41,177 nt of DNA from Bacteroidota bacterium (GTDB taxonomy: Bacteria > Bacteroidota > Rhodothermia > Rhodothermales > UBA10348). The stretch's first letter is position 1; each line of letters begins with the position of its first letter. Location: the NCBI GenBank assembly GCA_022571255.1, contig JACZYD010000010.1, forward strand, positions 1-41,177. Reading direction: 5' to 3'. Made by a program: the position numbers and the translations under genes. Shown here piece by piece: positions 5,214-41,177 of the stretch. The notes under the pieces are model-generated. The model was not told where the DNA came from. It made no database searches and worked only from the letters and a program-made list of their open reading frames with translations.

Positions 5214-7247
5214 ATGGGGCTGGGAAAGCTTAAACTGAAAAACATCTCGGACCGGGATCAGAAAATGATCGCGGATATCGATATAATGATGGGGCCGGAA
5301 CCGGCTTCCATGGGATTTGCGAAAAACCTGTTCTGGGGAAGGTTTCAGGAAAAAACGGTGTTACCATATCCGTCCGTGAGTTCCGAGGAGAAAATCAAGT
5401 GTGACGCTCTTCTCGAGAAGCTGGAAGATTATCTCAAAAATGAACACCCGAGTATTCAGATTGATCAGGAAGAAAGAATTCCGAAGTGGTGCATCGACCG
5501 CCTTTTTTCTCTCGGCGTAATGGGCATGACGGTTCCCGAAGAGTACGGAGGGCTGGGCCTGGGAATTACATGTTATAACCAGGCGCTGGAGATGCTGGGG
5601 AGATATTGTGGATCCAGCGCAGTTATGGTTTCCGCTCACCAGTCCATCGGCTGCAAGGCGATCATGCTTTTTGGCACTGAAAAACAGAAAAAGGAATTTC
5701 TTCCCGGGGTTGCCCGAAAATACCTGTCCGCTTTCTGCCTGTCTGAGCCGAACGTGGGTTCCGATGCCGCAGGTCAGGAAACACGCTGTGTGCTGAGTGA
5801 TGATGGGACACATTTTATTCTGAATGGGGAAAAGAAATGGAGCACTTCCGGCGCAATCAGTGGTCTGTTCACCATAATGGCAAAGCAGTCCATCGTAGAT
5901 GCCACTACCGGAATTGAAAAAGAGGCGGTAACAGCGCTCATCTGTACGCCTGATCTCGAAGGAATTGAGATATTTGAGTCCAATCGCAGTAAAGCCGGTA
6001 TCCGTGGTACGTGGCAGGCCAGAATTCGATTTACCAATGTGAAGGTGCCCAGGGAAAACGTGCTTCATAAAGAAGGGAGGGGCCTTCAGGTTGCTCTGAC
6101 GTGTCTGAACTTCGGGCGCTGCACACTTTCCGCCGGTGTAATGGGCGGTGCAAAACGAGCGATGGACCAGAGTATCAAGTGGGTTCAGACGAGATACCAG
6201 TTCGACCGGCCTCTCGCTGATTTTGAACTTGTACAGATGCGTATTGCTCGAATGGCGGCTTATACATTTGCCATGGACGCGATGCTTTACCTCATGACCG
6301 GGATTCTGGATCGCGAGGATACCGATATCATGGTTGAAACCGCTATCACGAAAGTATTCTGTTCGGAATTCGGATGGCAGGTGATAGACGACGCACTCGA
6401 GATCATGGGTGGTGAAGGATACGTCGCAGAAAACGAGTTGGAACGCATCTGGCGTGATAATCGCATTCATCGAATCGTTGAGGGTTCTAACGAGGTGATG
6501 TTGCCCTTCATATTCGCATACGGTGGAAAACAGCTGGCCGAGCAGATGTTCGGAATTCAGGAGGCCGTAAGCTGGAATCTGGAGACTGACGTGTCGTCGA
6601 ACGTGAAGCGAATTGCAACCAATCTGGCCGATCCGCGACTGTTGAAAAGAGCCATTCCGCTTGCTGCGCAATTGTTCGCCGGATACCGCCCGGGGGCTCC
6701 GCAAATCAAGTCTGTACACGATTCGCTGCGCGACCAGACAAATCGTCTTTCGAATCTGATTCAACACCACTCGCATTCTTTCAAGATGGCGAGCAAGTGG
6801 TTCAGAGAAGACATCGTCACGAGGCAAGCTGTGCAGGCTCGTCTGGCGAACAGCGCGATGTATCTTTTTGCGCTTTCTGCGAGCCTCTCAAAAATGGATT
6901 CACTGATCCGAAACAAAGATCGATCCGTGGACTACGAGCGAGACGCGGCTGCCTTTGAGCATGTTTTTGATCTTCTGGAAAAAATGATCCGGGATGATCT
7001 CGGAGACATCAGGACGTCGTCGGACAAAAGCATGTTGAAAGCCGCCAGTGCTGCGAGGCGACAAAACGATTTACTGCCGAACGAAGACTTTTATATTCAC
7101 GAGGCGTCCCCCATTGCTGCGGGTACCGGAAAACCTGTCCGACCAGAATTGTTCAAGCGATTCAGTTTGGACCACCAGACCGAGACGGGTGGAGACGGTT
7201 ATGTCGACGAGGCCGGCTTATCCAGGCAGGGTCACCTACCTGTTTAG
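5214..7247 (+). CDS. Acyl-CoA dehydrogenase, long VLCAD/ACAD9-like form
   Basis: 677 residues, longer than the roughly 380-400 of a simple acyl-CoA dehydrogenase and a little longer than the roughly 600-residue forms common in Bacteroidota. It should oxidise acyl-CoA to trans-2-enoyl-CoA with FAD, passing electrons to an electron-transfer flavoprotein. An N-terminal leader is followed by the helical domain with MTVPEEYGGLGLG, then the flavin-binding middle domain with AFCLSEPNVGSDAA and GEKKWSTSG. The C-terminal helical domain has IMGGEGYVAENELERIWRD and the catalytic-base loop IVEGSNEV, with Glu423 in the expected place. Residues from about 440 form the extra helical domain of VLCAD/ACAD9-type enzymes. 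The final forty residues are Gly- and polar-rich and less typical. It is a single-gene unit convergent with serS. Chain-length preference cannot be told. Confidence 0.92.
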   Translation: MGLGKLKLKNISDRDQKMIADIDIMMGPEPASMGFAKNLFWGRFQEKTVLPYPSVSSEEKIKCDALLEKLEDYLKNEHPSIQIDQEERIPKWCIDRLFSLGVMGMTVPEEYGGLGLGITCYNQALEMLGRYCGSSAVMVSAHQSIGCKAIMLFGTEKQKKEFLPGVARKYLSAFCLSEPNVGSDAAGQETRCVLSDDGTHFILNGEKKWSTSGAISGLFTIMAKQSIVDATTGIEKEAVTALICTPDLEGIEIFESNRSKAGIRGTWQARIRFTNVKVPRENVLHKEGRGLQVALTCLNFGRCTLSAGVMGGAKRAMDQSIKWVQTRYQFDRPLADFELVQMRIARMAAYTFAMDAMLYLMTGILDREDTDIMVETAITKVFCSEFGWQVIDDALEIMGGEGYVAENELERIWRDNRIHRIVEGSNEVMLPFIFAYGGKQLAEQMFGIQEAVSWNLETDVSSNVKRIATNLADPRLLKRAIPLAAQLFAGYRPGAPQIKSVHDSLRDQTNRLSNLIQHHSHSFKMASKWFREDIVTRQAVQARLANSAMYLFALSASLSKMDSLIRNKDRSVDYERDAAAFEHVFDLLEKMIRDDLGDIRTSSDKSMLKAASAARRQNDLLPNEDFYIHEASPIAAGTGKPVRPELFKRFSLDHQTETGGDGYVDEAGLSRQGHLPV

Positions 7248-27043: not shown

Positions 27044-27115
27044 GCGGGTGTAGCTCAGTGGTAGAGCATCACGTTGCCAACGTGAGGGTCGTGAGTTCGA
27101 ATCTCATCACCCGCT
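27044..27115 (+). tRNA. tRNA-Gly (anticodon GCC)
   Basis: 72 nt. The acceptor stem GCGGGTG pairs with CACCCGC (27108-27114), with discriminator T at 27115. The D arm is GCTC-AGTGGTA-GAGC. The anticodon arm TCACG-TTGCCAA-CGTGA gives anticodon GCC. The T arm GTGAG-TTCGAAT-CTCAT contains the TTCGA signature and a G-T first pair. No CCA is encoded. It reads GGC and GGU glycine codons. Confidence 0.97.
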
Positions 27116-33825: not shown

Positions 33826-34800
33826 TTATCGGACTATCTGTTCCGGCTGCACCAAATCTTTCTGTGGCTGATTTTCATATTCATCTAAAAAACCACTGCC
33901 TTTATCGGCGTACGACCGCTTGATTTCAAGTACGTCTGGATGCTCGTCATTTACGAGAAGGACGGTAAAGTTATGCGGGAAACCACGTCGTTTCTCGAGC
34001 CATACGGCACCGCAATCTTCCAGGTAATTGATAGTTGCTTTCGGTTCCTCATCCGTATCGGTGAGTTCCGTCAGACGACGAAGAAGCGGTGTTAAATACA
34101 CCTCTTCGTATTGACCGAAGTACTGTTCGATGATCTCAAGAGTTTCACGTCCGATCGAATCCTCGACTCGCACCATGTGTTCAGGGCGCTGGGAAGTGAC
34201 AGTTTCCTGCTGTATGGACACACCCTCTTCGAAGGGAAGAGCTACTCCGTTTGCGTTTGCCCGACCGGCCCGTTCGAACAATGCTCGCGCGTTGAAATAA
34301 GCATCTCGAAGATCAGTCGCGATGAGACCCTCTGTTTCTGGAGCGTCCAGCGAGGCGACAAGAACGAATTTGCCTGCTGACCGAATGCTTCGAACGAGGG
34401 GCACGTACCATTGGTCCCCCGTCAGGATTATTACGGAATCGACTCGTTTTTCATCTGAAACGGCCTTTGTCGCTTCAATTCCAAGATCGATGGAGGCTTC
34501 GCTATGCCCGGCCGGCAGCATATGAACACGCGCTTCGATTCCGTTGGCAATCCACGCGGCAGTGGCCCGATGCGGTCGCGGTTCTTCCGAGGTGATCGAA
34601 TCAAAGGCGATCGTCTGTACCACATTCAGGTTCAGGAAATCCGTCGCGTACTCACGAATTTCAGCGATCATCCGAATCGCCAGTTCGTCCGAATCGTGGT
34701 CTGGCCCTATAAGATCAGAAATAATAGAACACACATTGGCGTAGTCGACCAGTACGATGGCCGGGGTCATCAGACCCTGGGAAATGTTGCTTTTTCTCAT
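33826..34800 (-). CDS. NYN-domain (PIN-like nuclease fold) protein with C-terminal helical domain
   Basis: 324 residues from ATG 34800; a second ATG at codon 11 begins the domain directly (MTPAIVLVDYANVC). The N-terminal NYN/LabA-like fold (about 12-170) has the acidic positions Asp19 (VLVDYANV), Asp105 (ASIDLGIEAT) and Asp129 (ILTGDQWYVPLVRSIRSAGK). NYN proteins are metal-dependent RNases or nucleic-acid binders. The usual second Asp of the GDxDF motif is replaced by Trp131, so activity is not assured. After a linker, residues 215-285 (ETLEIIEQYFGQYEEVYLTP, then RRLTELTDTDEEPKATINYL) look like a winged-helix or OST-HTH-like domain ending FTVLLVNDEHPDV. The gene lies 49 bp after hslV and 54 bp before hslU. 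Partner and substrate are unknown; coexpression with the protease is the main clue. Confidence 0.75.
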   Translation of the reverse strand: MRKSNISQGLMTPAIVLVDYANVCSIISDLIGPDHDSDELAIRMIAEIREYATDFLNLNVVQTIAFDSITSEEPRPHRATAAWIANGIEARVHMLPAGHSEASIDLGIEATKAVSDEKRVDSVIILTGDQWYVPLVRSIRSAGKFVLVASLDAPETEGLIATDLRDAYFNARALFERAGRANANGVALPFEEGVSIQQETVTSQRPEHMVRVEDSIGRETLEIIEQYFGQYEEVYLTPLLRRLTELTDTDEEPKATINYLEDCGAVWLEKRRGFPHNFTVLLVNDEHPDVLEIKRSYADKGSGFLDEYENQPQKDLVQPEQIVR

Positions 34801-38081: not shown

Positions 38082-39821
38082 CTAATGACGGAAGTGGCGG
38101 TTCCCGGTGAAGACCATGGCGACCTGGTTTTCGTCGGCTGCACCGATTACTTCATCGTCCCGAATCGATCCTCCGGGTTGAATGGCTGCTCGCGCTCCGT
38201 TTTTTACGGCCTCAAGCAGGCCGTCTGCGAACGGGAAAAACGCATCGGAAGCAATTACACAGCCGTCGAATGAGAGCCCCGCTTTATGGCCCTTGTGGAC
38301 GGCGACTTCAGAGGCATCAATTCTGCTCATCTGACCTGCCCCGACACCGATAGTGTGGCTGTTCTTCGCGTAAACGATGGCATTACTCTTGACATGTTTC
38401 GCCACGCGCCACGCAAAATCCAGATCCGCCCATTCCTCGTCTTCAGGCGCTCTCGATGTAACCACCGTGCAACGGTCCTTCATGGTGGATGCGTCCGGAA
38501 GTACGCGATCACGATCCTGCACCAGAAAGCCCCCGACAACGGATCTGAAATCCTTCGCCGTATGCTGCCGAGCGTCCACTTTTTGGCGAATCAAGCGACG
38601 GTTTTTCTTCTGCATCAGAAACTCAAGGACACCGTCCTCAAAATCTGGTGCAATAATGAGTTCTGTAAAGATGGCATTGATCGCCCTCGCGGTTTCCAGG
38701 TCCAGTGGACGGTTCACAATGACGATGCCGCCGAATGCAGACTGGGTGTCGGTCGAAAATGCACGGTCGTAGGCGAGCGGTAACGAGTCTGCAACTGCGA
38801 CGCCGCACGGGTTGGTATGTTTGAGGATGGCGCAGCAGGGCCCATGATCCCGAAACTCGTCGATCAGCGAGAGGGCGGCGCTCAGATCGAGAAGATTGTT
38901 GAACGAAAGTTCTTTTCCGTGCAATTTCTCGATGTACCGAGCGATGTCGCCATATAGAGCTGCCGTCTGATGTGGATTCTCACCATATCGGAGTTCGCGG
39001 ATGAACGGAGCATCGATCCGCAGCGCTTCACCGCCGCCGACAGGGGTGCGGTCTGAATCAGTATCTGGAGTTTCGCTCGCCTGCGCCTGCTGCCCTTGCG
39101 CCTGCTCCGCCTGCTGCCCCTGCGCCGCCTGTTGTGCCTCTGCCTGTACCTGCTCCGCCTGCTGCCCTTGCGCCTGCTCTGCCTGCGACAGTACTGATTT
39201 CCGGGCGAAATACGAATCAATGGCCGCGTCATAAGACGCCGTGTGTCGAAATGCTCGATGTGCCAGTTCACGCCTCGTATTCATGCCGATTGAACCCGAA
39301 TTATTCTCCATCTCGTCTATGATGCGATCATAGTCTGAAGGAGACGTGATCACAGCGGTGAAGAAGAAATTCTTTGCAGCCGCTCTGATCATCGTGGGTC
39401 CGCCGATATCGATATTTTCGATTGCGGTTGCGTCGACCGTAGTCGGATCAGCGGTGGCCTCAGAAAATGGATACAAATTGACTACAACCAGGTCGATGGT
39501 TGCGCTGCCATGCTCTTTCAGCTGGGCGAGATCATCCGGGTCGGTTTTGCGCGCCAGAAGACCCGCATGAATCTTGGGGTGCAATGTCTTGACGCGTCCA
39601 TCCAGTATTTCCGGATACCCGGTAAGTGACGATACCGAGATTACAGGCAGCCCCGCCTCGCTCAGGGCGCGCTTTGTGCCGCCCGTCGAAATCAACTCCA
39701 CACCTTGATTATGAAGAACCCGGCCAAGTTTTACGACATCAGTTTTGTCGAACACAGAAAGCAATGCACGTTTGATCGGGTAAAAGTCGTCAGGTACAGG
39801 AAGGTTTTTGGTTTCTATCAT
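38082..39821 (-). CDS. purH: Bifunctional AICAR transformylase / IMP cyclohydrolase with Gln/Ala-rich linker insert
   Basis: 579 residues against about 510-530 in most bacteria. It does the last two steps of IMP synthesis. The MGS-like IMP cyclohydrolase domain (about 12-205) shows RALLSVFDKTD, STGGTKRAL, VKTLHPKIHAGLLAR, NLYPF and NIDIGGPTMIRAAAKN. The transformylase domain (about 265-579) shows RYGENPHQTAALY, the catalytic Lys334-His335 in ILKHTNPCG, and a C-terminal FPFADGLLEA with QPGGSIRDDEVI. Residues about 211-265 are an extra segment between the domains. Most of it (213-249) is Gln, Ala and Glu, encoded by a tandem DNA repeat; it ends in an Asp/Thr/Gly stretch. The enzyme domains appear intact. 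It is 37 bp from purN and 84 bp from mreC. Confidence 0.96.
   Translation of the reverse strand: MIETKNLPVPDDFYPIKRALLSVFDKTDVVKLGRVLHNQGVELISTGGTKRALSEAGLPVISVSSLTGYPEILDGRVKTLHPKIHAGLLARKTDPDDLAQLKEHGSATIDLVVVNLYPFSEATADPTTVDATAIENIDIGGPTMIRAAAKNFFFTAVITSPSDYDRIIDEMENNSGSIGMNTRRELAHRAFRHTASYDAAIDSYFARKSVLSQAEQAQGQQAEQVQAEAQQAAQGQQAEQAQGQQAQASETPDTDSDRTPVGGGEALRIDAPFIRELRYGENPHQTAALYGDIARYIEKLHGKELSFNNLLDLSAALSLIDEFRDHGPCCAILKHTNPCGVAVADSLPLAYDRAFSTDTQSAFGGIVIVNRPLDLETARAINAIFTELIIAPDFEDGVLEFLMQKKNRRLIRQKVDARQHTAKDFRSVVGGFLVQDRDRVLPDASTMKDRCTVVTSRAPEDEEWADLDFAWRVAKHVKSNAIVYAKNSHTIGVGAGQMSRIDASEVAVHKGHKAGLSFDGCVIASDAFFPFADGLLEAVKNGARAAIQPGGSIRDDEVIGAADENQVAMVFTGNRHFRH
39078..39189. repeat. 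In-frame tandem repeat inside purH
   Basis: A degenerate 24-bp repeat, coding on the minus strand for variants of the eight residues AQGQQAEQ, spans PurH residues 212-248. The clearest copies on the plus strand share CTGCTCCGCCTGCTGCCC (39151-39168 and again near 39104). Some units are shortened (V and AE changes). Slippage at this array would alter only the interdomain linker. Confidence 0.85.
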
Positions 39822-39858: not shown

Positions 39859-40449
39859 TCAAGAGTCGACCGTGCGTTGTTCCAGCAGTTTTATCGCTGC
39901 CGGATACAGCTCATGTTCAATTTCAAGAACACGAGCGGCCAGTGTTTCCGGCGTGTCCGTTCTGAGGACTGGGATGCGTCGTTGTAAGAGGACAGAGCCG
40001 GTATCATACCCCTCATCAACAAAATGAACAGTAGCACCTGAACAATTAGTGCCACTTAGAATTACGGCATTATGAACATGCATTCCGTACATCCCTTTTC
40101 CGCCAAAATCGGGTAGAAGAGCCGGGTGCATGTTCAGAATGCGATTCGGGTATGCTTGAATCAATCGGGAAGGGATTTTTTTCATATACCCGGCAAGTGC
40201 GATCAGATCAATCTCGTATTCGGCAAGGCAAGAGAGCAGGGCGAGAGAGAACTCGCCGTTCTTCTCGAATTGCTCTGATCGGATCACAATGGAATCGATA
40301 TTTTCCTTCCTCGCTCGCTCGAGCACACCAGCTTGCTCGCAATTCGATATACACAGTACGACCCTGGAATCAATAATTCCGCTTTTACGGGCATCAACAA
40401 TCGCTTGAAAATTGGACCCGCCACCTGAGGCGAATACGGCCGTTCGCAT
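39859..40449 (-). CDS. purN: Phosphoribosylglycinamide formyltransferase 1
   Basis: 196 residues, typical length. It transfers a formyl group from 10-formyl-THF to GAR, the third step of purine synthesis. The phosphate-binding loop is ASGGGSNFQAIVDA (GGGSN at 9-13). LIALAGYMKKIP precedes the active-site motif ILNMHPALLPDFGGKGMYG, with Asn106 and His108. ATVHFVDEGYDTGSVLLQ carries the catalytic Asp, probably Asp149, with one extra residue compared with the E. coli spacing; Asp145 is an alternative. It precedes purH by 37 bp and the pair is clearly one operon. The folate donor is produced by FolD, encoded 15 kb to the left. Confidence 0.96.
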   Translation of the reverse strand: MRTAVFASGGGSNFQAIVDARKSGIIDSRVVLCISNCEQAGVLERARKENIDSIVIRSEQFEKNGEFSLALLSCLAEYEIDLIALAGYMKKIPSRLIQAYPNRILNMHPALLPDFGGKGMYGMHVHNAVILSGTNCSGATVHFVDEGYDTGSVLLQRRIPVLRTDTPETLAARVLEIEHELYPAAIKLLEQRTVDS

Positions 40450-40510
40450 ATACGTCAGATTTGAAAAAAGGAGAAGACGAAACTTACTGACACGAGCCGG
40501 AAGGATCCTT

Positions 40511-40933
40511 CTAAGACGCGGTGAAATCTGCGTTTGTGGTGGACTCGATCATCCGAAGGTGAGCGTCTGATTCTGTGACGACGAGTCGGGCCAGGACTCC
40601 GAATGGTATGCTCGTTTTTACCGGAATATGGCCATATTTCAGCCCGGTCGCTACAGGGTAGGGTACATGGTTGAAATAGTCGGTGAACACCTCGTCCAGG
40701 GTCAGGGAAGGTTGGTTGGCTGGCGGTTGGCAATCCGAGAATTCGCCCAGGACAATCCCCCCGACATTATCCAGCACCCCGGCAAGTCGCAACTGCGCAA
40801 ACATGGCATCCACACGATAGGGGGGTTCGCCGGTTTCTTCCAGAAAAGCCTGTCGCGCGATTTGCATGGAGGCGAGCCGCGCATCCAAGGTGCAATTGCT
40901 GCGGATCGCTGCTCGATCGATGCCGACCGCCAC
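40511..40933 (-). pseudogene. C-terminal fragment of an LD-carboxypeptidase (peptidase S66, LdcA-like)
   Basis: The open frame gives up to 140 residues from a GTG, but only about residues 30-140 resemble the family: FLEETGEPPYRVDAMFAQLR, AGVLDNVGGIVLGEFSDC, LTLDEVFTDYF, YPVATGLKYGH and SIPFGVLARL. These are the C-terminal third of S66 peptidases, which release the terminal D-Ala from muramoyl tetrapeptides in wall recycling. The N-terminal two thirds, with the nucleophile Ser in the GYSD motif, should lie to the right, at 40860 and beyond. None of the three minus frames there contains it, and stop codons occur within 75 codons. The resemblance stops abruptly at about 40846-40860, where plus-strand coding begins. 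It is therefore a headless, non-functional gene remnant next to purN. Confidence 0.72.
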
Positions 40934-41121
40934 GGCAGCAGCACCAACCGAAGCGCCGGAAAACTGACTCCGGCGACTATAGGTTGCGTTTTGGGCGGCA
41001 CCGACTCAAACCTCTTCGCCGTGTGCCAATTGATTATTTGTCCTGGGTAGTTCGCACCGTGACGGGCCGGCCAAAGGACGTGAAGGCTATTCGAGACTAC
41101 CTGCGCGCAACGTCGCGCTGA
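40866..41121 (+). pseudogene. DUF3820-like gene, apparently 5'-truncated and with a possible frameshift
   Basis: The last 50 codons in one frame read GDYRLRFGRHRLKPLRRVP then IDYLSWVVRTVTGRPKD, and end LRATSR followed by TGA at 41119. The F-G-R-H-x-x-K-P-L...V-P-x-D-Y-L-x-W pattern matches DUF3820 (a small domain of unknown function found alone or at the C-terminus of exonuclease-like proteins). The frame before it has no ATG. A neighbouring frame from ATG 40866 gives an Ala/Pro/Thr-rich linker (TATAAAPTEAPEN) ending at a TGA at 40965-40967. A single extra base near 40965 would join this linker to the DUF3820 part. Both the missing N-terminus and the join are inference. It overlaps the LdcA-like fragment on the other strand only outside that gene's recognisable part. 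Confidence 0.42.
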
Positions 41122-41139
41122 ATTGGGAGACGAAATCAA

Positions 41140-41177
41140 ATGGCAACATCGACGAAAAAACGCCTTAGCAAGCGGAA
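41140..41177 (+). CDS. Start of an unidentified gene cut by the right edge
   Basis: ATG at 41140 follows a good ribosome site (GGGAGA at 41125-41130, nine bases of spacing). Twelve codons read MATSTKKRLSKR, a Lys/Arg-rich opening. It begins 18 bp after the DUF3820-like stop on the same strand. The product cannot be identified. The clear Shine-Dalgarno contrasts with the weak ones of many genes in the window, in keeping with a different origin for this end. Confidence 0.35.
   Translation, partial: MATSTKKRLSKR

Follow-up and report, generated by a model that had tools for sequence, protein, structure and literature searches.

An ldcA fragment at the end of a draft Rhodothermales contig: a probable assembly gap and chimeric tail

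The terminal genes of the contig

The DNA considered here (the window, 41,177 bp) is the whole of contig C195 of a draft Rhodothermales genome (G000), and its base 41177 is the end of that contig. The assembly comprises 3,291,313 bases in 205 contigs, with an estimated completeness of 99.24% and a contamination of 1.78%. The finding as a whole concerns the final 667 bases of the contig, and the anomaly is confined to the last 331 of them. The features are the following.

39859..40449, minus strand: purN, intact gene for phosphoribosylglycinamide formyltransferase (PF00551, 177.9 bits; 67% identity to a relative of the same genus)
40511..40846, minus strand: C-terminal domain of LdcA (Peptidase S66), native, with the 5' two thirds of the gene missing
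40846..40847: junction, where the homology of ldcA to the relatives stops, within about one codon
40847..41177: 331-bp tail that reaches the end of the contig, probably added wrongly in assembly
40972..41121, plus strand: sub-threshold DUF3820-like (PF12843, QSregVF_b) frame, with a possible TTG start at 40984

The minus-strand fragment was confirmed as LdcA: the open reading frame 40511-40933 scores 80 bits with PF17676 (E 2.7e-22; cut-off 23.7), and the fragment matches solved murein tetrapeptide carboxypeptidase chains, the best of them being 5z03 (E 2.6e-9). Within the C-terminal domain it shares 45-60% identity with LdcA of eight relatives. However, about 111 residues of the protein are left, compared with open reading frames of 312-369 codons in six relatives, and the PF17676 match spans only residues 30-117, that is, positions 31-120 of the 120 in the profile. 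In contrast to LdcA, the fragment is devoid of the entire N-domain and of the serine motif, which reads GYSD in the five relatives aligned. The serine of the S66 peptidase motif is the catalytic one; as judged from its sequence, the fragment as read should be non-working.

The fragment also matches phrog_6292 (46.6 bits), a family of unknown function. This match was rejected as a sign of a prophage, since the locus is otherwise collinear with that of the relatives, and phrog_6292 is taken to be a phage family related to LdcA.

The break in homology

When this DNA was first read by eye from its letters alone (hereinafter, the sequence-only reading), a junction was placed at about 40846-40866 and DNA foreign to the locus was suggested to begin there and to run off the right edge. 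Both suggestions hold: the break lies at 40846/40847, at the left edge of the proposed range, and between the end of the homology at base 40846 and the end of the contig at 41177 there is nothing that belongs to the locus as known from the relatives. A comparison with relatives that carry an intact ldcA before purN, which the same reading had advised, was the source of the precise position. Fourteen relative loci were fetched (L003-L016), and 13 of these align to the LdcA fragment; in all 13, the main tblastn alignment begins at residue 30, which corresponds to base 40846. The fourteenth (L006, from contig C308 of genome G005) begins 78 bases before purN and yields no LdcA alignment. In one more relative, G003, the alignment begins at residue 31. 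Leftwards from base 40846, the window is collinear with contig C66 of the same-genus genome G001 for about 11 kb, through ldcA, purN and purH and on to the hslV/hslU region (the latter names come from translations read by eye, not from a family search).

Could nothing be broken here at all, with a naturally short LdcA simply lying beside an unrelated small gene? Formally, the fragment has a GTG start and an open frame of 140 codons, as such a gene would. However, none of the 13 relative loci aligns with its first 29 residues, and the match to the conserved domain begins only at profile position 31. Short forms in other genomes, which the sequence-only reading had named as the observation that would overturn it, were sought among the best 80 of 568 homologues, and none of the 80 is short: 79 of them have the motif G[YFW]SD in the same open frame, at a distance of 91-120 residues on the upstream side, and the remaining one runs off its contig. 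The closest of these best 80 of 568 are metagenome-assembled genomes titled Bacteroidetes, Rhodothermus or Rhodothermales, and five of the 80 are contigs that are already among the relatives used elsewhere in this analysis. Similarly, 11 of the 13 aligned loci continue the open frame upstream of the break by at least 207 codons, and the other two (L005 and L014) run off their contigs. A natural short form is therefore hardly credible, the least probable of the explanations considered here.

No RNA gene was found at the junction either: the stretch 40400-41177 has no Rfam match at E up to 1, and the sole tRNA of the window is located at 27044.

The missing part of the locus

The break removes more than a part of ldcA. 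The surroundings of this gene were read in seven relatives (G001, G002, G003, G007, G008, G013 and G024), where purN lies downstream of it, and in six of the seven a wbqC-like gene adjoins it on the other side (in G024, this gene is recognized only by the resemblance of its translation); in G008, wbqC is found at a distance of about 4 kb. Of the resulting neighbourhood wbqC-ldcA-purN-purH, which is to be regarded as a local feature and not as a defining trait of LdcA, the window retains the order of purN and purH. No WbqC was found anywhere in G000, whereas the family is present in 27 of 31 genomes and in 23 of the 25 high-quality ones, the two exceptions being G000 and G034.

The same holds for the N-terminal half of LdcA. 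The sequence-only reading had proposed that it be looked for beyond the window; PF02016, the profile of the LdcA N-domain, has no match in G000. Of 60 genomes including G000, 56 have this domain, and among the 44 genomes with a completeness of at least 90% and a contamination of at most 5%, it is lacking in a single one, which is G000.

In three of the seven relatives read (G002, G007 and G013), the row extends further, to php-wbqC-ldcA. Here, php stands for a PHP-like label given from the look of the N-terminal sequence; the C-terminal half that exists in G000 gave no Pfam match. In G001, the gene after wbqC encodes a sulfatase and no php was found, and in G003 and G008 php is located on a different contig from ldcA. 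A php match was obtained in 9 of 13 genomes. In the G000 homologue, only residues 185-417 of the query are matched (E up to 1e-10), and the 5' part of the gene was not found in G000 at the same limit.

These absences bear on the event that the sequence-only reading had put first, namely, recombination or insertion. An insertion would leave the N-terminal half of LdcA elsewhere in the genome, and none is found there, nor is wbqC or the 5' part of php, while another contig of G000, C51, ends inside php; an event of this kind is thus less likely than had been supposed. In its most specific form, such an explanation would have a mobile element inserted in ldcA and the contig breaking inside the element as a repeat. 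Draft contigs do often end in repeats, and the composition of the tail is atypical (see below), as this version would have it; but the split-off half with its PF02016 domain is missing, and the tail is a single-copy sequence in the assembly, without a match to phage families or to phage or plasmid DNA. We consider such an insertion very improbable, if slightly less so than a natural short gene.

The terminal 331 bases

The tail differs from the rest of the window in composition. Its GC content is 58.0%, as compared with a mean of 51.3% (SD 3.2) over 122 equal-sized blocks of the window, of which one is as high; its score under an order-3 Markov model, -1.383, is matched or undercut in two of the 122 blocks. 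The native ldcA piece is likewise low (Markov score -1.377, GC 55.4%). The composition of the tail is, then, only moderately unusual, which is supportive of a chimera and not decisive.

Searches with the DNA of the tail did not lead to a source. It occurs in one copy in its own genome (the last 27 bases were also checked alone), and it has no 13-mer in common with the window bases before 40830. Across 60 genomes, the sole match consists of 28 bases in G046 (93% identity, E 4.7e-4), which we take to be due to chance. In 395 genomes drawn from the phylum, only the window itself was matched at E 1e-6, and nothing in the 394 besides G000, among the matches listed, with two candidates scored per genome; blastn against plasmids and phages gave no match.

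At the protein level, the sequence-only reading had seen in the tail a second headless gene, similar to DUF3820, that would meet the headless ldcA. For LdcA, this description is correct, the N-domain being gone; for the plus-strand frame the case is weak, and this frame is either headless or starts at the TTG at 40984. Its scores with PF12843 were 14.9, 14.3 and 12.3 bits (the last from a whole-genome search, E 0.5), all below the cut-off of 22, and the match is limited to positions 13-37 of the 66 in the profile. The same frame scores 18 bits (E 0.0017; cut-off 245) with the C-terminal end of NF004963, a model of the epsilon subunit of DNA polymerase III. DUF3820 (QSregVF_b) also occurs at the C-terminus of some DnaQ-like exonucleases. 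The frame resembles this family in matching both a short part of PF12843 and the C-terminal end of the NF004963 model; it differs from accepted members in that it stays under the curated cut-offs, only about 25-31 residues align, and the relatives are weak or unconfirmed. A DUF3820 fold for 40972-41121 appears plausible from the sequence. The openness of the frames in the tail is no evidence of a gene, since the longest of them (109 codons) is equalled in 112 of 1000 base shuffles.

Wider protein searches yielded similarly faint signals. Something was matched at E up to 1 in 30 of 60 genomes, G000 included, and the best match elsewhere (G045, E 0.011) is unconvincing. Pattern matches were obtained in viral contigs (38) and in genome contigs (404), and none of either set was confirmed at E 1e-3. 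By tblastn, 17 phage records were retrieved, all of them weak (best E 0.5) and mostly exonucleases or polymerase III subunits, along with two weak plasmid records (best E 0.4), both DUF3820 proteins. These matches would fit a DUF3820 fold and do not place the tail DNA. The three tail frames compared match no PHROG family. Altogether, these searches found no phage or plasmid gene families or DNA in the tail, and no second half of LdcA that would mark the far side of a mobile element or a prophage was found in G000.

A probable assembly gap between two contig ends

The gene fragment at the end of C51 indicates where the missing block may belong. This contig of G000 (7,249 bp) ends inside php: the gene occupies positions 6546-7247 of locus L040, on the minus strand, and runs off the contig end. 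In addition, C51 carries a DUF3047 gene (PF11249) with 76% identity, over 214 residues, to a gene on contig C173 of G001, which begins inside ldcA and holds the 5' end of ldcA together with wbqC. As php and DUF3047 point the same way and come from different relatives, C51, in reversed orientation, is indicated as the right-hand neighbour of C195. Judged from the gene order in the relatives, C51 is likely to be the true neighbour of the right end of the window; this adjacency is likely rather than proven because the gene order varies, php lying next to wbqC in only three of the seven relatives read.

The size of the missing block can be read from the three relatives with the row php-wbqC-ldcA, as the distance from one break point to the other: it amounts to 1,992 bp in G002 (L041), 1,848 bp in G013 (L032) and 2,054 bp in G007 (L030). 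The smallest of the 62 G000 contigs sized, out of 205, is 2,875 bp long. At 1.85-2.05 kb, the block is shorter than this and may therefore lie under the size limit of the assembly.

Our preferred explanation for the cut-off genes, to which we assign a probability of about 0.85, is an assembly artefact: the draft genome would have a gap next to C195, and the contig would carry a chimeric tail. The organism itself would most likely have an intact ldcA, preceded by a divergent wbqC and then by the PHP-like gene. A contig of about 2 kb, with the 5' two thirds of ldcA, wbqC and the 5' half of php, would have been left unassembled or discarded, and the assembler would have lengthened C195 by 331 bases taken from some other place or organism; such a wrong extension would bring two unrelated gene pieces into contact. 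Under an assembly gap, the missing block is expected to be contiguous, to lie between two contig ends and to be shorter than the contigs kept, and the data agree with this expectation. Chimeric or mis-extended contig ends are a known class of error in draft genomes assembled from metagenomes. The end of C195 resembles them in that homology stops abruptly within a few hundred bases of it, in a missing block that is smaller than the contigs sized and presumably bounded by a second contig end (that of C51), and in the shift of composition; it differs in that the searches found no parent sequence for the tail. A point against this explanation is the length of the tail: the usual short read is shorter than 331 bp. 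We infer from the context that the tail is probably a chimera, its source not having been found in the searches.

The sequence-only reading had rightly remarked that a genuine rearrangement and a chimeric join made in assembly would be indistinguishable by eye, and the main rival is indeed of this kind. A true deletion with replacement, in which foreign DNA was swapped for the 5' part of ldcA, wbqC and the 5' part of php in this lineage or in a part of its population, is capable of yielding much the same assembly; ldcA would then be a dead remnant without its catalytic serine. That the missing pieces are not found in a genome with an estimated completeness of 99.24%, and that the tail differs in composition and possibly has a DUF3820-like frame aboard, is in favour of such a replacement. 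Nevertheless, the presumed block is flanked by contig ends on both sides instead of being replaced by one continuous junction, the tail matches neither a phage family, in a search with three of its frames, nor plasmid or phage DNA, and the N-domain of LdcA is present in all 43 other high-quality genomes examined. We regard a replacement as unlikely, although clearly less so than an insertion or a natural short gene. If true, it would mean that this lineage in particular has lost a common cell-wall gene.

With the assembly gap preferred over replacement, the best reading of the locus is that the observation is real and its cause ordinary. In practical terms, G000 should not be listed as having lost or shortened its ldcA; the gene is probably there, assembled only in part. 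Annotation of the contig should begin by trimming or flagging its last 331 bases, which are suspect. The completeness estimate of about 99% failed to reveal the missing block.

Additional observations

Contig ends around ldcA are seen in two further draft assemblies of the same family, too. In G001, contigs C66 and C173 (L029 and L028) both begin inside ldcA, and in G005 contig C308 (L006) begins between ldcA and purN. As each genome consists of hundreds of contigs, this may be a coincidence, or the stretch may be hard to assemble.

Further to the left in the window, the product of purH (38082-39821, minus strand) is 579 residues long, compared with 523-541 residues in five relatives read, and carries a repetitive insert rich in Q, A and E (QAEQAQGQQAEQVQ...) at residues of about 213-260, between conserved parts. 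A gene that is NYN-like by its translation (not by family search) lies beside the hslV-like gene at about 33832-34800 of the window, and the same pair is found in three relatives (L029, 6235-7206; L030, 1-432; L034, 10754-11779).
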